Assembly (NCBI RefSeq): GCF_946187725.1
Contig: NZ_CAMHSK010000002.1
Coordinates: forward strand, 122,848 to 186,847
Length of the DNA: 64,000 nt
Origin: an uncultured Treponema sp.
GTDB lineage: Bacteria > Spirochaetota > Spirochaetia > Treponematales > Treponemataceae
Direction of reading: 5' to 3'
Of the stretch, positions 4,296 through 22,169 are shown in pieces. The notes beneath the pieces were generated by a model that saw only the letters and a list, made by a program, of their open reading frames with translations, had not been told where the DNA came from and ran no database searches. A program made the translations under genes and the position numbers. How positions within the stretch are numbered: position 1 is the first letter of the stretch; each line of letters starts with the position of its first letter.

Positions 4296-5867
4296 TCAGT
4301 TTTTCTGTGCCTTTGCGGCGTTCTGCATGTATGTATTGAATGCGTCGTTTTCAATCTTCAGGAATTTTTCAAGTCCCATTGCCTTGAGTGTTGAAAGATA
4401 AGAATCCCACTGTTCAAGAATTCCGCCCTTTGTGACCCAGGTTGCCTGATTTGTCGAAACATAAGCTGAAAGATCAGTGTAAAGCAAGGCAAGAGAGTTG
4501 ATTTGCTCTGGAGTGTAGCTTACATTCGGATAAGACGGGGTTGCGTACGAGCTGAAAGAAGCGTCGAGTGCAAGTTTAGCCGCATCGCCGTTTTCTGCAA
4601 GATAACTGACTCGTGAATTGAATCCATCCTTAACATATTTTGGTCCAAAATCACGAAGAGAATTTACCCAGGCGTAAGTGTCTGCTGACTGACCGTTTTG
4701 CGGAGGGAGAACAGAATATGTTCCGTCTTCGTTTTTGTCTACGCCGATTCCGAATGAGCCGTAAAAGTTCTGAATTGAAGCGTCATCTGTGTAAAATTTA
4801 TCGACCCAGGCAAGAAGTTTTTCAGGATTCTTACATGCAGATGTGATAACGAATTCATATCGTGAGTAATTCCAGTGCTCCGGGTCAGATGAAATGTATC
4901 TTTTTCCGTCCGGTCCCTGAAGAGGTGGAAGCGGAACATACTGCCATGCATTTGCCCCGAAAGTTGCATCTGCTGTCCAGCCTGCGGCAACACCGACAAC
5001 AGGAGTAGCGCCCATGAGTTTTGCATCGCGCATTGACTCATCCTGGGTAAAAAGTTCCGGGTCAATCAAGCCGTTCTGGAAGCAAGTGTGCATCCACTGA
5101 ACGCCCTTTTTATATCCTTCATCAATAGGAAGCCACTGAGGCACATTGTCTTTTAAAGTCATAAGGTAAGTTCCGTCAGAACCGACAGTTGTTCCAAAAG
5201 GAAGCGTAAAGAACATAACCGGGTCGGTGTATCCCCTTCCGTAAGGAATTTCATCATCAGTCTTTCCGTTTCCATTTGCATCGTTTTCTTTAAATGCCTT
5301 CAATACTGCTTCAAATTCCTTGTAAGTCTGAGGCATTTCAAGACCAAGACGAGCGAGCCATACCTTATTGATGAAAAGCTGATTTGCGACAACAGGGCGG
5401 CACGGTTTTTTAGAAGGAAGGCCGTAAATGTGTCCGTCAGATGAAGTTGCAAGAGAAAGCATTTTCGGGTCTTCGCTTATGATTTTCTTGAAATTCGGCA
5501 TGTATTCATCGATGTAATCTTCAAGAGGAATAAAAGTTCCGACATTAGTCATTACATCCGACTCAGAAAAACAGATTGCCCCCATGAATGCGTCAGGCAA
5601 ATCTCCGCCTGCAAGCATGACGGCACGACGGTCACCCCAGTCAGAATTCAGGATTGTCTTCCATTTAATATCGATCCCGGCTTCCTTTGCGGCACTGTCC
5701 GGGAATCCTGTGTGATAGGCCTCGCCCCAGTCTGCCCAGCGAACAGTCGCGACCTCAAATTCATTTTCATTTTGCTCGACTTTTGCGGTTTTTTCATTAC
5801 ATGAAAGAGCCAAAAAGCCCAAAGCCATAATTGATGCGATAACAGTGATATTTTTCTTCATTTTCAT
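4296..5867 (-). CDS. Extracellular solute-binding lipoprotein of a sugar ABC importer (LplA-like)
   Basis: A lipoprotein of 523 residues, with a signal ending in the lipobox LALSC (Cys 23). The body resembles large family-1 solute-binding proteins of the LplA type that pair with LplB/LplC permeases. An upstream in-frame ATG at 5882 sits inside the GGAGGA Shine-Dalgarno. The ATGs at 5870 or 5867 (4 and 7 bases after it) are better starts; I chose 5867. The two permease genes lie immediately upstream in the same operon and glucan-active enzymes lie on both sides, so the ligand is probably a maltooligosaccharide. That ligand is inference from context. The protein should be anchored on the outer face of the inner membrane. 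Confidence 0.88.
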   Translation of the reverse strand: MKMKKNITVIASIMALGFLALSCNEKTAKVEQNENEFEVATVRWADWGEAYHTGFPDSAAKEAGIDIKWKTILNSDWGDRRAVMLAGGDLPDAFMGAICFSESDVMTNVGTFIPLEDYIDEYMPNFKKIISEDPKMLSLATSSDGHIYGLPSKKPCRPVVANQLFINKVWLARLGLEMPQTYKEFEAVLKAFKENDANGNGKTDDEIPYGRGYTDPVMFFTLPFGTTVGSDGTYLMTLKDNVPQWLPIDEGYKKGVQWMHTCFQNGLIDPELFTQDESMRDAKLMGATPVVGVAAGWTADATFGANAWQYVPLPPLQGPDGKRYISSDPEHWNYSRYEFVITSACKNPEKLLAWVDKFYTDDASIQNFYGSFGIGVDKNEDGTYSVLPPQNGQSADTYAWVNSLRDFGPKYVKDGFNSRVSYLAENGDAAKLALDASFSSYATPSYPNVSYTPEQINSLALLYTDLSAYVSTNQATWVTKGGILEQWDSYLSTLKAMGLEKFLKIENDAFNTYMQNAAKAQKN

Positions 5868-5896
5868 CATAAAATCCTCCATGATAAGTGTTAACC

Positions 5897-13180: not shown

Positions 13181-13209
13181 TTTACATATTGCGGGTATCA
13201 TGGTTTAAT
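13181..13209 (+). promoter_or_regulatory. Promoter of the LacI-family regulator, placed for a leaderless start
   Basis: TTTACA (13181-13186), a 17-base spacer and TTTAAT (13204-13209) match the sigma-70 consensus at 5/6 each. Six bases separate the -10 box from the ATG at 13216, so transcription would begin at the start codon. No Shine-Dalgarno is present. Confidence 0.65.
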
Positions 13210-13215
13210 AAACCT

Positions 13216-14235
13216 ATGGCAACCTTAAAGGAAATAGCGCAGAAAGCCGGTGTCAGCGTGATGACCGTCTCAAATGTGGTAAATGGAAAAACAGAAAAAG
13301 TTTCAAAGGAAACGCTCGAACGCATTCAAAGTCTCATCAAAGAGTATAATTATGTGCCGAATCTGAATGCCCGCTCACTAGTAAAAAATAACTCTCAGAC
13401 AATCGTTGTTTTTGTAAGTACATTTGTATCGCACGAAAATGTTTTCAAAGACCCGTACTTATCAGAATTCTTTGGAGAAATTGAAAATCTCATACGCCAG
13501 AACGGATATTATGTCCTGATTCAAACAATCGATGCGATTGAAAATGCCGCTACTCTCATGAAAAAATGGAAGGCTGACGGTGCAGTTTTCATTTCGCCGG
13601 TTTCGCCAGAGAAAATCCATCAGTTAAAACAAGAATGTGACTGTCCGATTGTTTTCATAGACAGCTGTGATTCCGAAGAAACTTCCCTTACGGTCGGAAT
13701 CAACGAGTTTAAGGGCGGTTTTATCGCCACAAAGCATCTTCTCACGCTCGGACACAGAAAAATCGGAATTGCAGGATATTATGACAAGAAAAGCGCAATC
13801 GTTCAGGCCCGCTATCAAGGATATATTGCGGCTCTCAAAGAATTCGGGCTTGATGAAAAAGATGCAGTGATTTTGCACACGGTTACGACTTATGAGGCAG
13901 GGCTTTATTTTGGCGGCGCGATTGCGAATCATGAGTACGATATTACCGCAGTTTTTGCCACGGCAGATTTACTTGCAATCGGAATCATGGAAGGTGCAAG
14001 AAGGAACGGGTGCATTGTTCCGCGGGATTTGTCTGTAGTCGGTTTTGATAACCTTTCTGTTTCGCAGATTGTAACCCCAAAACTCACCTCTGTCTCGCAG
14101 GACCTGAAAAACAAGGCCGCCGAGGCAGTGGAGCTTTTGTTCAAAGCAATCAGAAAAGAGGAAATAGCTCAGCCGCACATCATCTGTGATGTACAGCTTG
14201 AACTACGCCAGTCTGTGCTCGAAAGAGTGCTGTAG
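13216..14235 (+). CDS. LacI-family transcriptional regulator, probable repressor of the alpha-glucan operon
   Basis: A 339-residue LacI/GalR-family regulator. The N-terminal helix-turn-helix and hinge start exactly at MATLKEIAQKAGVSVMTVSN, which supports the ATG at 13216 over the in-frame TTG at 13189. The periplasmic-binding-protein-like effector domain follows, with LGHRKIGIAG and LSVVGFDNL as usual. It is divergent from the glucan operon, whose promoter carries a LacI-type dyad. By family it should release DNA when a sugar ligand binds; maltose or a maltodextrin is a guess from context. It ends 6 bases before the convergent GH94 gene. Confidence 0.9.
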   Translation: MATLKEIAQKAGVSVMTVSNVVNGKTEKVSKETLERIQSLIKEYNYVPNLNARSLVKNNSQTIVVFVSTFVSHENVFKDPYLSEFFGEIENLIRQNGYYVLIQTIDAIENAATLMKKWKADGAVFISPVSPEKIHQLKQECDCPIVFIDSCDSEETSLTVGINEFKGGFIATKHLLTLGHRKIGIAGYYDKKSAIVQARYQGYIAALKEFGLDEKDAVILHTVTTYEAGLYFGGAIANHEYDITAVFATADLLAIGIMEGARRNGCIVPRDLSVVGFDNLSVSQIVTPKLTSVSQDLKNKAAEAVELLFKAIRKEEIAQPHIICDVQLELRQSVLERVL

Positions 14236-14241
14236 GTTTGC

Positions 14242-16653
14242 TTACATTACCATGCGGATTTCTGTTGTGGCGGTGAGTTTTGATTCTGGGACATAGTTGT
14301 CGGAGAATTTCACGCCGTTAACATAGAATTCGGTGAATCCGCTTTCTTTTCCGTTCGGATTTTCTACCTTGATTTTGAGTTTTTTACCACGGAAAGTCTT
14401 TTCGATTGAGAATTCTTTCCAGTCAGAAGGCACAGACGGAGCGATTCTTAATCCACCGAAATCAGGGCGCATACCCAAAATTCCTTCGACACAACCGACC
14501 ATTACAGTTGAGGCAGTTCCTGTGAGCCAGTGAACATGACTTCGGCCAAAGTGAGGGCTTGATTTGCCTTCCGTGAACTGACCGTAGCAGTATGGCTCAA
14601 GTTTTCGGATTTCAGCCTTTTCATTCTGTGCAGAAGGAGCATTTTCCATGAAGTACTGGAATGCACGGTTTCCGTGTCCAGTCAAACTTTCAGCAAGAAT
14701 AATCCATCCCTGACTCTGAGAGAAAATTCCGGAATTTTCTTTTACACCGGCATTGTAAATTACAGCAAGTGCACCTTCAAAAGCATGTGCGTGATACGGC
14801 GGATCCATGAGAACCGCACCATATTCAGTGTTCAGCTGTTTGTTTACTGAATCGAGAGCCTTTTCTGCCTGTTCTTCAGATGCAAGTCCAGAAATGACAG
14901 ACCAGCTCTGAGGATTGAGCCACATATTTGCTTCAGGATCGCCCTTCTTGCCGATTGTCTCACCGGCTTCCGTAAATCCACGGATAAAGCGGTCTTCATT
15001 CCAGCAAAGTTTATTCAAAAGCTTTTTAAAAGCGGCCTGAGTTCTGTCAATGAAGGCAATGTAATCTGTATCTTTTTTATATTCAGCAAAGTGCTTGATT
15101 ACGCTCATCGCATAATAGTACTGGAATGCGACGAATGAAGATTCACCGTTTTTGCCGAGGCGAAGACAGTCGTTCCAGTCAGCATAAAGACCAGCAGGAA
15201 GACCGTGTGGGCCAAGTCGTTCCATAGAGAAATTGATTGCCCGCTTCAAGTGCTCGTATACCGTGCCTGAATCCTTGTTTGCAAAAGGAATAACTTCATC
15301 GATGAAAGCAAGATTTCCAGTCTCTGCGATGTATTTGAAAACAGTCGGGAAGAGCCAGAGCGCATCATCTGCACGGTAAGCAGGATGACCAGTTTCTTTT
15401 ACATAGCTTGCATCATCCGGAGTGTCCTCATGGCCTGCGTTGTGAGTGAATTTTACGAGTGGAAGACCGCCACCGTTATCGACCTGCGCAGAAAGCATGA
15501 ATCGGATTTTTTCAACGGCCATCTCAGGAGCAAGATGAATTACGCCCTGAATGTCCTGAACTGTGTCGCGGTAACCGTAGCCGTTGCGGAGACCACAATA
15601 GATGAATGAGGCAGCGCGAGACCAAATGAAGGTCATGAAACAGTTGTAAGCGTTCCATGTGTTAATCATCGTGTTGAATTCTTTGCTCGGTGTGTTGACC
15701 TGGAAATTCTCAAATTTGCCGTGCCACCACTTCTTGAGGTCAGCGAGTTCTTTTTCACAAGTTTTTTCAACATCTGCATAAGCGGCGATGATTTTCTCTG
15801 CCTCTTCAGTGTATTTCATTCCGACGATGAAAGCGATTGATTTTTCTTCACCAGGAGCAAGCTCTACAATAGAAGAAATTGCACCGCATGAGTTTTCGTT
15901 ATAAGACAATTTGTTTCCCAAATCACCGTTTTCAATTCCAGCTGGATTTGCGTAAGTGTGATAAAGGCCAAGGAATTCTTCTTTGTCACCACAGTATGAA
16001 GCAACAGGATTTCCGGCCAGTGCAAAGAATCTTTCAGTTACGATTTTATTATCAACTGGCTTAGATTTTTCGACATCTGCAAGATTTCCGTGAACCTGCT
16101 GAATCACGCGGTTTTTATCAAAGTAAGTGCGTCCGATAAAAAGCGAGTACTGAAGGTTAACCTGATCCTGCTCGTAATTTGAGTTGTTAGTGAATTCTGC
16201 ATAGCCCGTAACGGTCAGTTTTCGCGCTTTGTCAGAAGTATTTTTAAGTTTAAGATTCCATACTTCATAAGACTGATTGAGAGGAACATAGTAAAGTGCC
16301 TCAGAATGAATTCCAGCATAATCAGCAAGCATTTTTGTATATGCGGTTCCGTGACGGCACTCGCTCTTATAGCTGTTCAAGTCCTTGCCAACAGGCTGCC
16401 ATGAAGCAGACCAAAAATCTTTTGATTCATTGTCGCGGATATAGATATAGCGGCCAGGCTGGTCAAAATTATTGAACACATATCGCAGAAGACGGCCGTT
16501 TGCACCAGATTTTGCAAAACTGTAACCGCCGGCATTATTTGAAATCAATGCACCATACTCAGGCGAGCCGAGATAATTTGCCCATGGAGCAGGTGTGTCA
16601 GGCCGGGTAATAACATACTCCCTTTTCTCATCATCAAAAAAACCGTACTTCAT
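14242..16653 (-). CDS. GH94 glycoside phosphorylase (cellobiose/chitobiose phosphorylase family)
   Basis: An 803-residue cytoplasmic enzyme, the usual length for the family. The N-terminus MKYGFFDDEKREYVITRPD and the segment PAPWANYLGS are family hallmarks. The catalytic acid is D495 in ADWNDCL. GH94 enzymes cleave beta-glycosidic disaccharides with phosphate, yielding a sugar-1-phosphate without ATP cost. The start resembles both cellobiose and N,N'-diacetylchitobiose phosphorylases, so the substrate is left open. Its beta-linkage specificity does not match the neighbouring alpha-glucan operon, and it has its own promoter region (16711-16754). SD GGGGTG precedes the ATG. Confidence 0.85.
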   Translation of the reverse strand: MKYGFFDDEKREYVITRPDTPAPWANYLGSPEYGALISNNAGGYSFAKSGANGRLLRYVFNNFDQPGRYIYIRDNESKDFWSASWQPVGKDLNSYKSECRHGTAYTKMLADYAGIHSEALYYVPLNQSYEVWNLKLKNTSDKARKLTVTGYAEFTNNSNYEQDQVNLQYSLFIGRTYFDKNRVIQQVHGNLADVEKSKPVDNKIVTERFFALAGNPVASYCGDKEEFLGLYHTYANPAGIENGDLGNKLSYNENSCGAISSIVELAPGEEKSIAFIVGMKYTEEAEKIIAAYADVEKTCEKELADLKKWWHGKFENFQVNTPSKEFNTMINTWNAYNCFMTFIWSRAASFIYCGLRNGYGYRDTVQDIQGVIHLAPEMAVEKIRFMLSAQVDNGGGLPLVKFTHNAGHEDTPDDASYVKETGHPAYRADDALWLFPTVFKYIAETGNLAFIDEVIPFANKDSGTVYEHLKRAINFSMERLGPHGLPAGLYADWNDCLRLGKNGESSFVAFQYYYAMSVIKHFAEYKKDTDYIAFIDRTQAAFKKLLNKLCWNEDRFIRGFTEAGETIGKKGDPEANMWLNPQSWSVISGLASEEQAEKALDSVNKQLNTEYGAVLMDPPYHAHAFEGALAVIYNAGVKENSGIFSQSQGWIILAESLTGHGNRAFQYFMENAPSAQNEKAEIRKLEPYCYGQFTEGKSSPHFGRSHVHWLTGTASTVMVGCVEGILGMRPDFGGLRIAPSVPSDWKEFSIEKTFRGKKLKIKVENPNGKESGFTEFYVNGVKFSDNYVPESKLTATTEIRMVM

Positions 16654-16845: not shown

Positions 16846-19800
16846 ATGAATATAAAAAAGTTTTTACTTTCCCTTTTCATTTTGCCGGCGTTTTTAACAA
16901 ACGGATTTTCACAGTCAGCTGCTAACGGAAATGTTGATCAGACCTTCCTTAACGATTTTGTTCACAGAAAATGGACTACGGCGGACGGTCTTCCAGGCAT
17001 GACCATAACGGCAATCATGCAGGATCAAAAAGGCTATATCTACATCGGAACCTACGACGGTCTTGTTCGTTTCGATGGCGTTGAATTCATAAATTTTACC
17101 CGAACAATTGACCCGAAATACGATTTTTCATCAGTCCGCTCGATTTTTCAGGATTCGGACGACAATCTTTGGGTCGGACACAACGATGAAGGCGTTTCGT
17201 GCATCATGCCGGACGGGCGAATCATCAAATACACCACGCACCAGGGATTGCCGCACAATTCAATCCGTGCAATCTGCGAAGACTTCGACCACAATATCTG
17301 GCTCGGTACGGCTTCGGGGCTCTGCTATCTCACACCCACAAGAGAAATTCTCTACCCCAACGGCTTAAAGGAACTCGGTCAGGACACAATTCAGGTATCA
17401 AAAATGTACTGCGATACCGCCGGAAGAATTTGGATTACCACGGCTATTCCGAACGAACTTTTCGTCTATTCAAACCGCAAGCTGGAACAGTTCAAAGGAA
17501 TCACAAAAATCAAAGATCCTTCCGTAAACGAAGTCAGTCAGGATAAAAGCGGTGCGTTTTGGTTCGGAGTTGCCCCTCACTACGCGGTAAGAATCAAGGA
17601 TACAGAAGAAACAGTCTTTGACATCGGGCATGACCATCTTGAAGGAACAGTCGTAAATTCAATTCTTCAGGATTCAGCAGGTGATTACTGGTTCGCATCT
17701 GATTCAGGGGCTACCGTAATCCACAACGGACTTTACACCTACTACGACAAAAGGAACGGCATCCCAGACGATTACATCAACAGCATCTTTGAGGACAGGG
17801 AAGGCAACATCTGGATTGCATACAACCGAGGCGGAATCGAAAAGCTCAGCCACGGAAAATTCCGGACTATCACAATGCCAACTGCTGTAAACGCCATCTG
17901 TGAGGACAATATTCGGTCAGTGACCTGGCTTGGTGCAGATGACGGCCTTTACTGCTTCAAGGACAATTCTTTCGTAGAAAATGAAATCACAGAACTGTGC
18001 AAGGGTTCACGAATCCGCCATGTCGGAATGACGGCCGACAATGAGCTTTTAATCTCAGCATACGCAAACTTCACTCAAATCAGAGTTCTTCCAAACAATG
18101 AAATCAATGTCTGGACTACAGAAAACGGGCTTGTCGGCGGCAAGGCCAGGGTCGCAATCAAATCAAGCAAAGGCGACTATTACATCGGAACCACACAGGG
18201 CTTGAGCATAATCAGCAATGGCGGAACTTCATTTACCTCAATCACGCGTGAAAACGGACTTGAAAATGAATTCATCATGTGCCTCTTTGAAGACAAAAAA
18301 GGCCAAATCTGGGTCGGAACTGACGGCGGCGGTGTCTACCTCATTCAGGACATGAGCCTTGCAAAGCACTACACTTCACAGCAAGGGCTTGCGGGCAACA
18401 TCATCTTCAAGATTTCAGAGATTGAAAACAGCGGAATATGGATTACAACAGGAACAGGAATTTCTAAATTTATAGAAGAAAATGATTCATTCTACAATTT
18501 CAGCTCATCAAACGGCCTAGGCACGGACGGCGTTTTCCAGATGCTATGCGATTATACGCAGACAGTCTGGATGACAAGCAATAAGGGTATCCTTTCAACT
18601 AACCTTTCAAACTTTGAAGATGTAATCAGCGGCAAAAAAAGCAAAGTCACCGCAAAATATTACGGAAATTCGGACGGTCTTGTAACAGGCGGAGTCACAT
18701 CAACTTCAGTATCAACCAAAGATTCTCTCGGCCGAATTTGGTTCACTCTTATCGACGGATTTGCAATCTACAATCCGGTAAAATCCGGCAAAAATCAGAA
18801 AGCACCTCAAATCGAAATTCAGGAATATTCTATAGACAGCGTTCGAAAAGACTACCACGGCGAAACAATTGTTCTTGAACCGTCAGCAAAACGACTCAGC
18901 ATCAAATTCACTGGTCTAAGCTTCATTTCTTCTGATCAGATGCGTTTCTGCTACCGGCTCGCAGACTTTGAACAAGAATACTCTGAATGGTCTCAGAACA
19001 GAACGGTCTCATACACAAACCTTCGTCCGGGAACCTACGAGTTCACAGTAATTTCTCAGAACAGCGATGATATCACAAGTGAACCGAGCATGCCAATCAC
19101 AATCATCAAAAAACCTTACATCTGGCAGCTAACCTGGTTCTGGGTTTTAATCGCACTCTTCATAATCGGAGTTGCCGGATTAAGCGTCCGTCATAAAATC
19201 CGAAAAATGCGCCGTTATCAGATTGAACTGGAACAGAAAGTTGAAGAGCGGACTCATGACCTCAAGCTCGAAAAAGAAAAATCAGAGAGCCTTCTTCTAA
19301 ACATTCTTCCGGCAGAAGTTGCAAAAGAGCTTACGGAGCACCCGAATCAGACAATCGCTAAAAAATTCCCGAATGTCACGGTTCTTTTCACGGACATCGT
19401 AGGCTTCACAAAAATGAGCGATGGAATGAGTGCAGAAGCAGTAGTCACCATGCTCAACAAGATGATTTCAAAATTCGATGAGCGGGCAAAGCGTGAAGGA
19501 ATCGAAAAAATCAAGACCATCGGTGACGCTTACATGGCAGCAACAGGCCTTACGGAAGAAAAAAACAATGACGGCGCAAAGAAAATGATAAAATACGCAC
19601 GGGGCCTTCTTGAAGATGTCAAGGCTTTCAACGAATCATCCCCTGTAAAAATCCAGATTCGTCTCGGAATCAACAGCGGAAATCTTGTTGCCGGCGTAAT
19701 CGGAAAATCAAAGTTCATCTACGATATCTGGGGAGACACGGTAAATGTCGCAAGCCGAATGGAAAGCACAGGCGAACCGATGAAAATCCATGTCACCGAA

Positions 19801-19896
19801 TCAACCTATGCTCAGACTAAAGACACATTCACCTACAGTGAAGGCGTTGAAGTCGAAGTCAAAGGCAAGGGCGAGATGAAGACTTATTTCTTATAA
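16846..19896 (+). CDS. Membrane adenylate cyclase with periplasmic double beta-propeller and Y_Y_Y sensor
   Basis: A 1016-residue fusion. After a signal peptide (1 to about 23), about 14 two-component-regulator propeller repeats run to about residue 640, for example GYIYIGTYDGLVRFDG and NIWLGTASGLCYL. This fits two seven-bladed propellers. A Y_Y_Y domain follows (about 655-755), then one TM helix (about 761-782), a short coiled coil and a class III cyclase domain (about 840-1016). Cyclase residues are complete: metal ligands D850 and D894, transition-state N967 and R971. K890 (IKTIGD) and D960 (YDIWGD) specify ATP, so the product should be cAMP. The sensor half matches hybrid two-component sensors of Bacteroidetes that detect glycans, but the output is cyclase rather than kinase. 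The neighbouring sugar genes suggest a carbohydrate signal; this is inference. Confidence 0.9.
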   Translation: MNIKKFLLSLFILPAFLTNGFSQSAANGNVDQTFLNDFVHRKWTTADGLPGMTITAIMQDQKGYIYIGTYDGLVRFDGVEFINFTRTIDPKYDFSSVRSIFQDSDDNLWVGHNDEGVSCIMPDGRIIKYTTHQGLPHNSIRAICEDFDHNIWLGTASGLCYLTPTREILYPNGLKELGQDTIQVSKMYCDTAGRIWITTAIPNELFVYSNRKLEQFKGITKIKDPSVNEVSQDKSGAFWFGVAPHYAVRIKDTEETVFDIGHDHLEGTVVNSILQDSAGDYWFASDSGATVIHNGLYTYYDKRNGIPDDYINSIFEDREGNIWIAYNRGGIEKLSHGKFRTITMPTAVNAICEDNIRSVTWLGADDGLYCFKDNSFVENEITELCKGSRIRHVGMTADNELLISAYANFTQIRVLPNNEINVWTTENGLVGGKARVAIKSSKGDYYIGTTQGLSIISNGGTSFTSITRENGLENEFIMCLFEDKKGQIWVGTDGGGVYLIQDMSLAKHYTSQQGLAGNIIFKISEIENSGIWITTGTGISKFIEENDSFYNFSSSNGLGTDGVFQMLCDYTQTVWMTSNKGILSTNLSNFEDVISGKKSKVTAKYYGNSDGLVTGGVTSTSVSTKDSLGRIWFTLIDGFAIYNPVKSGKNQKAPQIEIQEYSIDSVRKDYHGETIVLEPSAKRLSIKFTGLSFISSDQMRFCYRLADFEQEYSEWSQNRTVSYTNLRPGTYEFTVISQNSDDITSEPSMPITIIKKPYIWQLTWFWVLIALFIIGVAGLSVRHKIRKMRRYQIELEQKVEERTHDLKLEKEKSESLLLNILPAEVAKELTEHPNQTIAKKFPNVTVLFTDIVGFTKMSDGMSAEAVVTMLNKMISKFDERAKREGIEKIKTIGDAYMAATGLTEEKNNDGAKKMIKYARGLLEDVKAFNESSPVKIQIRLGINSGNLVAGVIGKSKFIYDIWGDTVNVASRMESTGEPMKIHVTESTYAQTKDTFTYSEGVEVEVKGKGEMKTYFL

Positions 19897-19960: not shown

Positions 19961-21334
19961 ATGGAAAACAGAGAAAATTTCAAATCACGCTTAGGATTCA
20001 TTATGACTTCAGCCGGTTGTGCAATCGGTCTCGGCAATGTCTGGAGATTTCCTTTCATCACAGGTCAGTACGGCGGGGCAGCATTCGTCCTCTTTTACTT
20101 AATATTTCTTGTTTTGCTGGGTTCCCCAATCATGGTCATGGAATTTGCCGTTGGGCGGGCAAGCGGTAAGAGCGCTGTCCGTTCGTTTCACGCACTGGAA
20201 CCACAAGGCAGCAAGTGGCATATATTCGGTTATTTTGCAGCTGCAGGCAACTACATCCTCATGATGTTTTATACCACGGTTGCAGGCTGGATGTTCTCGT
20301 ACATTTTCAAAAGTGCGTCAGGCACATTTTCGGCTTTAAGCGCAGATGAAATCGGCACAGTCTTCACGAACATGCTTTCAAATCCGGTGGAACAGCTTGC
20401 ATGGATGGCAGCGGCTGTCATAATCGGTTTTCTAATCTGTCTTGGCGGTCTAAAAAATGGCGTAGAAAAAGCCTCAACAATCATCATGACAAGCCTTCTT
20501 GTCCTCATGCTCGTGCTTGTGTTCCGCTCGCTAACACTTCCCGGTGCCGAAAAGGGCCTTGCTTTCTATCTTAAACCAGATTTTTCAAAAATGACGGAAA
20601 ACGGTCTCGGCGAAGTAATTTTTGCAGCCATGGGGCAGGCATTTTTCACTCTGTCACTCGGAATCGGAGCACTGGCAATTTTTGGAAGCTATATCGGAAA
20701 AGAAAAATCACTCACTGGTGAAGCAATCAACATAATCGCTCTGGACACTTTTGTTGCCCTCATGGCAGGATTCATCATTTTTCCGGCTTGTTTTGCTTTT
20801 GGCGTAAATCCTGGGCAGGGACCGGGCCTCATCTTCATTACCCTTCCGAACATTTTCAATTCAATGTTCTGGGGAAGGCTTTGGGGCACGCTTTTCTTCG
20901 TATTCATGTCATTTGCGGCACTTTCAACAGTTATTGCCGTCTTTGAAAACATAATCGCATTTGCAATGGACATGCTCGGATGGAGCCGCAAAAAGTCTGT
21001 CATCGTCAACATGATACTGATTTTCATTCTTTCGATTCCATGTGCACTTGGCTTCAATCTCTGGAGCGGCTTTCAGATTCCTGGAATCGGAAACATTCAG
21101 GACCTCGAAGATTTCTTCGTATCAAACAATCTTCTTCCGCTTGGCTCACTCGTTTACCTTGTTTTCTGTACCTCACGCTACGGCTGGGGATTCAAAAACT
21201 TCATCGAAGAAGCAGACACTGGAAGCGGCTTGAAATTCCCAAAAATCTTCCGTCCGTATGTTAAATGGATCCTTCCTTTAATCGTAATTGTGATTTGGGC
21301 TGTCGGATATATTCAGAAATTCATACTAAAATAG
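19961..21334 (+). CDS. NSS-family sodium-dependent amino-acid/neurotransmitter-type symporter
   Basis: A 457-residue integral membrane protein with about 11-12 TM helices. The family signature is clear in TM1: GCAIGLGNVWRFPFITGQYG, the unwound sodium- and substrate-binding segment as in LeuT. Bacterial NSS members of this length take up amino acids with sodium, often Trp, Tyr, Leu or Ala. The substrate cannot be read here. It starts 64 bases after the cyclase gene with its own -10 box, and overlaps no other gene. The HAD phosphatase follows 7 bases later, probably in the same transcript. Confidence 0.9.
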   Translation: MENRENFKSRLGFIMTSAGCAIGLGNVWRFPFITGQYGGAAFVLFYLIFLVLLGSPIMVMEFAVGRASGKSAVRSFHALEPQGSKWHIFGYFAAAGNYILMMFYTTVAGWMFSYIFKSASGTFSALSADEIGTVFTNMLSNPVEQLAWMAAAVIIGFLICLGGLKNGVEKASTIIMTSLLVLMLVLVFRSLTLPGAEKGLAFYLKPDFSKMTENGLGEVIFAAMGQAFFTLSLGIGALAIFGSYIGKEKSLTGEAINIIALDTFVALMAGFIIFPACFAFGVNPGQGPGLIFITLPNIFNSMFWGRLWGTLFFVFMSFAALSTVIAVFENIIAFAMDMLGWSRKKSVIVNMILIFILSIPCALGFNLWSGFQIPGIGNIQDLEDFFVSNNLLPLGSLVYLVFCTSRYGWGFKNFIEEADTGSGLKFPKIFRPYVKWILPLIVIVIWAVGYIQKFILK

Positions 21335-21341
21335 GACACAC

Positions 21342-22169
21342 ATGACTTCAGAAAAACTTGATGTTAAGCTGATTGCACTCGATTTGGACGATACCCTCTT
21401 AAACGATGAGCGGCAGATTTCAGACGGAAATGTCGCCGCACTTCGGGAATGTGCACAAAAAGGGATTTACATCGTCCTCTGCTCAGGCCGTGCCGAAAAT
21501 GCAATCCTTCCTTTTGTTCGCCGACTTGAAATTGCGGGCATGGAAGCCGGAAAATTCATAATTGCAATTAACGGATGCTCAATTTTCGACATGCATAAAC
21601 GGCAACAGATTTTTTGCCGCAAAGTTGAAAGCGAAATTCTGCTCAGAACAAACCAGATTGCTGAAGAACGCGGTCTCAGGAGCGAAGTCTACACACCAGA
21701 CACAATCTATTATCGCGAAGAAACAAAATGGACACGGCTTGATGTCGAAATGTGCGGATTAAAAGGCGAAGTTGTAAACGATTACGAAGATTTTCTGAAA
21801 CAGGGATTCACAAAAATGCTCGTCCCAGGCGACCCGGCTGAACTTCAGGAATTGCAGAAAGCCTTAAAAGCCGAATTCGGAGAACGGGCTGTAATCTTTA
21901 CAAGTAAGCCGTACTTCCTCGAAATTCTTCCGCCAAACTGCGGCAAAGGCGAAGCCGTTGAATGGCTTTCAAAACAGCTCGGTTTTGGGCTAGAACGGTG
22001 CATGGGCTTTGGTGACAGCATGAACGATGAAAGCCTTATCAGAATGGCGGGCTATGGAGTCGCGCTCTGCAACGGCCTTGATGAAATCAAAAAAATCGCC
22101 GATTTCGTGACTGATTTTGACAACAATCATGACGGTGTCGGCGATTTTTTAAGGAAACATGTTCTTTAA
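21342..22169 (+). CDS. HAD-superfamily Cof-type sugar/nucleotide phosphatase
   Basis: A 275-residue HAD hydrolase of the Cof/YidA group. Motif I is IALDLDDTLL with the nucleophile and acid Asp pair. Motif II is VLCSGR, and motif IV is MGFGDSMNDESLIRMAG. The C2-type cap lies between motifs II and III. Members dephosphorylate sugar phosphates or flavin and pyridoxal phosphates with low specificity. The protein ends in DGVGDFLRKHVL, as is usual for Cof proteins. It is probably co-transcribed with the NSS symporter, and its 3' end lies 12 bases from the convergent phosphatase gene. Confidence 0.9.
   Translation: MTSEKLDVKLIALDLDDTLLNDERQISDGNVAALRECAQKGIYIVLCSGRAENAILPFVRRLEIAGMEAGKFIIAINGCSIFDMHKRQQIFCRKVESEILLRTNQIAEERGLRSEVYTPDTIYYREETKWTRLDVEMCGLKGEVVNDYEDFLKQGFTKMLVPGDPAELQELQKALKAEFGERAVIFTSKPYFLEILPPNCGKGEAVEWLSKQLGFGLERCMGFGDSMNDESLIRMAGYGVALCNGLDEIKKIADFVTDFDNNHDGVGDFLRKHVL

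Follow-up and report, generated by a model that had tools for sequence, protein, structure and literature searches.

A predicted receptor adenylate cyclase with a Bacteroides-type double-propeller sensor in Treponema, and the exchange of outputs among its relatives

Introduction

Double-propeller/Y_Y_Y receptors are known mainly as glycan-sensing kinases of Bacteroides. The PorZ structure paper (PMC5121618) describes BT4663 as a dimer that shifts between bound and unbound shapes, with disaccharides bound at the entry faces of its propellers, and presents Y_Y_Y as a spacer and dimerisation domain in the Bacteroides sensors. A spirochaete precedent for this kind of wiring is Leptospira kobayashii (PMC9043183), in which light-dependent nucleotide second-messenger synthesis controls swimming.

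We analysed a window, that is, the whole stretch of 64,000 nucleotides under study, from the genome of a rumen Treponema close to T. bryantii. In the product of one of its genes a Bacteroides-type sensor is coupled to a cyclase with no phosphorelay in between, and close relatives of this sensor carry HD-GYP domains. We predict, at a probability of about 0.78, that its product is a one-component transmembrane receptor adenylate cyclase. This propeller-Y_Y_Y-cyclase architecture, which the original prediction had called under-described, is apparently undescribed in the literature searched: a search of the available open-access papers for cyclases combined with Reg_prop (regulator propeller) or Y_Y_Y returned nothing on it, and papers mentioning Reg_prop together with GGDEF do exist.

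Domain organization and predicted structure

The gene occupies positions 16846..19896 of the plus strand as an uninterrupted open reading frame of 1016 residues, with the limits originally predicted, and its layout was defined by Pfam and by comparison with orthologs. Essentially full-length orthologs, at 55-77% identity and with the whole architecture kept, are present in more than 20 related treponemes, which rules out a chance or broken gene; those of T. bryantii are 76% identical. All features described below for the gene lie on the plus strand. The product starts with a putative signal peptide (residues 1-23, MNIKKFLLSLFILPAFLTNGFSQ; 16846..16914), recognised by inspection of the sequence and modelled as a low-confidence helix. 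Two seven-bladed propellers follow, the first at residues about 32-347 (16939..17886), as defined by DSSP of the model, Reg_prop matches and the alignment with BT4663, and the second at residues about 348-650 (17887..18795), as defined by DSSP and by the best Reg_prop stretch (471-494). The Y_Y_Y domain comprises residues about 651-757 (18796..19116), according to Pfam, the model and the structural alignment, and precedes a single transmembrane helix at residues about 760-782 (19123..19191), which corresponds to a hydrophobic stretch and to the beginning of a modelled helix (763-820). Residues 783-837 (19192..19356) comprise a coiled coil and a transducer element, LLLNILPxxVAxEL, conserved in our alignment of relatives (A2), with a weak HNOBA-like match at 794-829. 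The chain ends with a class III adenylate cyclase domain (residues 838-1016; 19357..19893), assigned from Pfam, sequence matches in the PDB, catalytic residues and the same alignment.

The three expected Pfam families, Reg_prop, Y_Y_Y and Guanylate_cyc, were all found, Reg_prop with six significant stretches (1.8e-39) and Y_Y_Y at residues 693-749 (E 1e-7). Pfam gave no match to a histidine kinase, a receiver or an AraC-type HTH domain in this protein. A phmmer search of the PDB matched the N-terminal part to the Bacteroides sensors 4a2l, 3v9f and 3ott.

We built an AlphaFold2 model from 22 sequences (mean pLDDT 80.8), in which confidence is about 90 in the periplasmic, propeller-containing part and low in the cyclase part. 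By our own reading of the DSSP strands, the model has 14 blades in two propellers, at residues about 32-347 and 348-650, in agreement with the about 14 repeats proposed beforehand; they are followed by a beta-sandwich (651-757) and by a single long helix starting at residue 763. In Foldseek the top ranks were taken by BT4663, BT3049 and BT4673 (E 8.6e-47 downwards), and VIA-align superposed the model on BT4663 with Z 38.8 over 689 residues and on BT3049 with Z 32.7 over 687 residues, whereas unrelated propellers scored lower (Z about 25-28). The periplasmic half is thus of the Bacteroides glycan-sensor type, as had been suggested. These three sensors, composed of Reg_prop, Y_Y_Y and histidine kinase, have the same ectodomain of two seven-bladed propellers plus Y_Y_Y and are 18-23% identical to it across about 660-690 aligned positions. 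However, the output of the Treponema protein is a class III cyclase, and histidine kinase, receiver and AraC-type HTH are absent; by its domain content it is not a Bacteroides-type HTCS. Its sensing half may nevertheless work like that of an HTCS, and a mode of action similar to that of BT4663 would be in line with this analogy.

Genomic context and ligand

Upstream of the gene, at 192 bp and in divergent orientation, there is a GH94 phosphorylase gene (14242..16653, minus strand; Pfam), the adjacency of which is not conserved, and beyond it a LacI regulator (13189-14235). Genes with alpha-amylase, CBM26, AMPK1_CBM, GH31 and ABC permease matches (Pfam) also lie on this side. Between the ABC permeases and GH31, a gene on the minus strand (4296-5882 of the window) encodes 528 residues with no Pfam match at 1e-5; judged from its location, the product is probably the sugar-binding protein of the adjoining ABC transporter. 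Downstream, an SNF-family sodium-coupled transporter gene (19961..21334, plus strand; Pfam) begins after 64 bp, followed at 7 bp by a HAD hydrolase gene (Hydrolase_3; 21342..22169, plus strand; Pfam). Scans for promoters and terminators around the cyclase gene found sites no more often than in shuffled sequence, so it is by spacing only that a cyclase-SNF-HAD operon is suggested; co-transcription of the cyclase and SNF genes is possible. Like the GH94 side, this downstream arrangement is not conserved among orthologs, although that of locus L052 also adjoins an SNF gene.

This neighbourhood had led to the proposal of a carbohydrate signal. A sensor of alpha-glucan or beta-glucan oligosaccharides, regulating the GH94 and amylase genes beside it by way of cAMP, would fit an ectodomain with the fold of the heparin/heparan-sulphate sensor, the position of the gene, divergent from GH94 and close to alpha-amylase, CBM26, AMPK1_CBM, GH31 and ABC permease genes, and the GH94 gene directly downstream of one ortholog (locus L076). 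We nevertheless regard such a sensor as unlikely. GH94 is present in 23 of the 24 ortholog genomes but adjacent to the cyclase in only two of them, and the two adjacent genes differ in score (482 and 426 bits), which makes it probable that they are distinct members of GH94. The remaining neighbours share no common pathway: downstream of the T. bryantii orthologs come a gene for a small membrane protein and then, two genes on, an OPT transporter, the ortholog of locus L070 lies near genes for an alanine symporter and an aromatic amino acid lyase, and others adjoin PPDK, an esterase or unrelated genes. The local LacI regulator is, moreover, a more obvious controller of the sugar genes. The gene does not hold a conserved place in a polysaccharide utilisation locus, as would be expected of an HTCS; its neighbours vary. 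The GH94/alpha-glucan surroundings are present beside the gene in the window, as described, but they are not conserved, and genome context was rejected as evidence of sugar sensing; the idea of a sugar ligand is a guess prompted by the fold.

In the family, the best-conserved neighbour is instead a UrtA-like binding protein, which also argues against reading the alpha-glucan genes as a pointer to a carbohydrate. It accompanies a paralog of the receptor. Of the seven Guanylate_cyc matches in the genome, two have propellers and Y_Y_Y, namely the gene at 16846-19896 and that at G000:C5:58065-61022, whose product has an identical domain order and 41-42% identity. In the paralog clade, a UrtA-like gene lies on the same strand, -14 to 108 bp downstream, in 12 of 14 loci, and the genes beyond it differ between loci. 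In our genome this pair (G000:C5:58065-62219; L008:7943-12241) is separated by 9 bp. The UrtA-like protein (Peripla_BP_5, 4.8e-153; Pfam) is the sole strong member of its family in the genome. The paralog differs from the receptor studied here in being paired with an orphan binding protein, which we infer may present the ligand to it.

A nitrogenous nutrient (amino acid, peptide or amide), perhaps sensed via a partner binding protein as in these paralogs, is another candidate ligand. Besides the orphan gene directly downstream of the sister-clade cyclases, the SNF transporter after the gene in the window, which also adjoins the ortholog of locus L052, the OPT transporter of the T. bryantii loci and the symporter and lyase of L070 would agree with it. 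Yet the UrtA link is confined to a paralogous clade of about 41% identity, and the amino acid genes beside the orthologs are not the same from genome to genome and were singled out in hindsight, which leaves a nitrogenous ligand doubtful for the receptor itself.

Exchange of outputs among related sensors

In relatives whose match is confined to the first 800 residues, the transmembrane helix is followed by either an HD-GYP or an MCP domain. In these Treponema Reg_prop/Y_Y_Y proteins (L055-L062, L108-L120) the sensor and the position of the transmembrane helix are the same, propeller 1 being up to 61% and propeller 2 up to 63% identical, but the output would degrade c-di-GMP or feed into chemotaxis. 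In a sensor tree of 63 rows, the receptor falls within a clade of 28 rows (SH-aLRT 100) that contains 21 cyclases and seven HD-GYP proteins. The output labels require four changes over the whole tree, and well-supported branches force at least two for HD-GYP. Holding all HD-GYP rows together, as one origin of this output would require, was rejected by the AU test (lnL difference 205.5, p 3.8e-6), for a group chosen after the tree had been seen. A regular expression used to label the outputs left those of some Bacteroidota and Acidobacteriota proteins and of two f35 proteins unlabelled, none of these proteins being in the Treponema output tree.

The same picture emerges from pairwise identities. 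Propeller 1 of the receptor is 57-61% identical to that of the HD-GYP proteins of its own clade and 49-56% identical to that of its more distant cyclase orthologs. Identity to the HD-GYP relatives falls from 29-46% in the transmembrane helix to 5-14% directly after it, the drop being past residue 785; the outputs switch exactly after the helix, as expected of a modular receptor. Both outputs can be found within one genome record set (JAQXNX, loci L046 and L059). The family is thus modular, with cyclase, HD-GYP and chemotaxis outputs attached to one sensor, and we consider this exchange a more interesting feature than either the sugar or the spirochaete reading.

We tentatively propose, at somewhat less than even odds, that these proteins are nutrient receptors whose conserved double-propeller sensor has been repeatedly re-wired past the transmembrane helix among cAMP, c-di-GMP-degrading HD-GYP and chemotaxis outputs, so that signals of one kind would be passed on by different second messengers in related treponemes, and that in one branch an orphan UrtA-like protein presents the ligand. 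Such swaps would show second-messenger wiring in gut treponemes to evolve faster than signal recognition, and they offer ready-made natural pairs with which to ask if one transmembrane helix transmits irrespective of the output.

Some further loci are worth recording. The sensor of the HD-GYP proteins L055-L062 and L105-L117 is nearly that of the receptor. In L106 the gene after the HD-GYP protein resembles, by eye, a 4-alpha-glucanotransferase, and in L108, L111, L115 and L117 a FGGY-type sugar kinase follows. L118, L119 and L120 combine the same double-propeller sensor with an MCP domain, as chemoreceptors with an unusual ectodomain. The genome of the window itself encodes a Y_Y_Y protein with HD-GYP output (G000:C4:50922-51059; L133) and two further Y_Y_Y proteins (L136 and L137).

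Distribution

At 1e-30 the receptor has a match in 86 of 145 genomes of the family, some of these matching one half only. For a wider survey we used a profile of the Y_Y_Y-TM-cyclase part, which found the same fusion across several genera of Treponemataceae and in two further families of Spirochaetota. It was also found in two of 297 sampled Acidobacteriota genomes and, by our own count of matches spanning both parts, in 22 or more of the 395 genomes of a Bacteroidota sample, and the examples that we fetched have propellers too. The propeller-cyclase had been taken for a specifically spirochaete system; this reading was rejected, and its occurrence in the Spirochaetota, Bacteroidota and Acidobacteriota samples indicates an architecture that is widespread at low frequency. 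The receptor is real and well conserved, with the structure correctly described at the outset, and it was the sugar and spirochaete-specific readings that were over-interpreted. One propeller-cyclase (L103:7465-9084) has about 170 extra residues past the cyclase domain, with no Pfam match there.

Cyclase domain and proposed mechanism

The Guanylate_cyc match at residues 838-1016 (E 1.2e-57; Pfam) covers profile positions 3-181 of 183 and is thus full length. The metal-binding Asp850 and Asp894 are present, and the transition-state residues Asn967 and Arg971 are in place. Lys890 (in EKIKTIGD) and Asp960 (in YDIWGDTVN), numbered correctly in the original prediction, constitute the ATP-selecting pair, so that the catalytic set is complete; both are kept in all 12 rows of alignment A2. 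A complete ATP-type class III cyclase is therefore predicted with good support from these residues; since the model has low confidence in its cyclase half, this support comes from the sequence only. The domain matched both adenylate and guanylate cyclases in the PDB (phmmer), including the C2 half of mammalian AC9, but formation of cGMP instead of cAMP, or a catalytically weak enzyme, is improbable given the ATP-type pair kept in all the aligned relatives and the presence of both metal-binding Asp, the Asn and the Arg.

Homologous cyclase domains are found in mammalian AC9 C2, the natriuretic peptide receptor and bacterial membrane adenylate cyclases. Class III receptor cyclases share with the receptor the transducer element (LLxxILPxxVA) as well as the ATP-type residues, but the Treponema protein has a propeller ectodomain and a single transmembrane helix, and it has one cyclase domain per chain in contrast with the two-domain plan of the mammalian enzymes.

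The following sequence of events can be envisaged. The protein would be exported and place its double propeller and Y_Y_Y in the periplasm, where, like BT4663, it is probably dimeric. Binding of a small molecule to the propellers would change their arrangement; the rearranged Y_Y_Y dimer would then move the transmembrane helix and the coiled coil, and the LLLNILP element would release the cyclase. By analogy with related receptors, this path, from propeller through Y_Y_Y, transmembrane helix and coiled coil to LLLNILP, seems the most likely. The class III cyclase domains would pair as a homodimer, forming two composite active sites, and convert ATP to cAMP, to be read by cNMP-binding proteins of the same genome. 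What the analysis establishes is the domain content, the predicted periplasmic fold, the catalytic residues, the orthology and the presence of candidate effectors; dimerisation, ligand binding, activation, the cAMP product and the downstream response are inferred from known families. Of the one-component sugar-to-cAMP system originally envisaged in a spirochaete, the predicted design that turns an extracytoplasmic signal into cAMP in one protein is supported, whereas the spirochaete specificity and the alpha-glucan context as a pointer to the ligand are not.

The receptor provides a route to what rumen treponemes use cAMP for. The Crp-type regulator of the genome has no cAMP cassette recognisable by the GExA...R(x)A pattern, which makes a transcriptional branch uncertain. 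It belongs to eight cNMP-binding matches in the genome, which also include a HATPase fusion and a BrkB fusion, and several of these proteins have canonical-looking GExA...R(x)A phosphate-binding cassettes. The BrkB fusion (L130:529-1812), a BrkB-type membrane protein joined to a cyclic-nucleotide-binding domain, is an unusual candidate cAMP effector.
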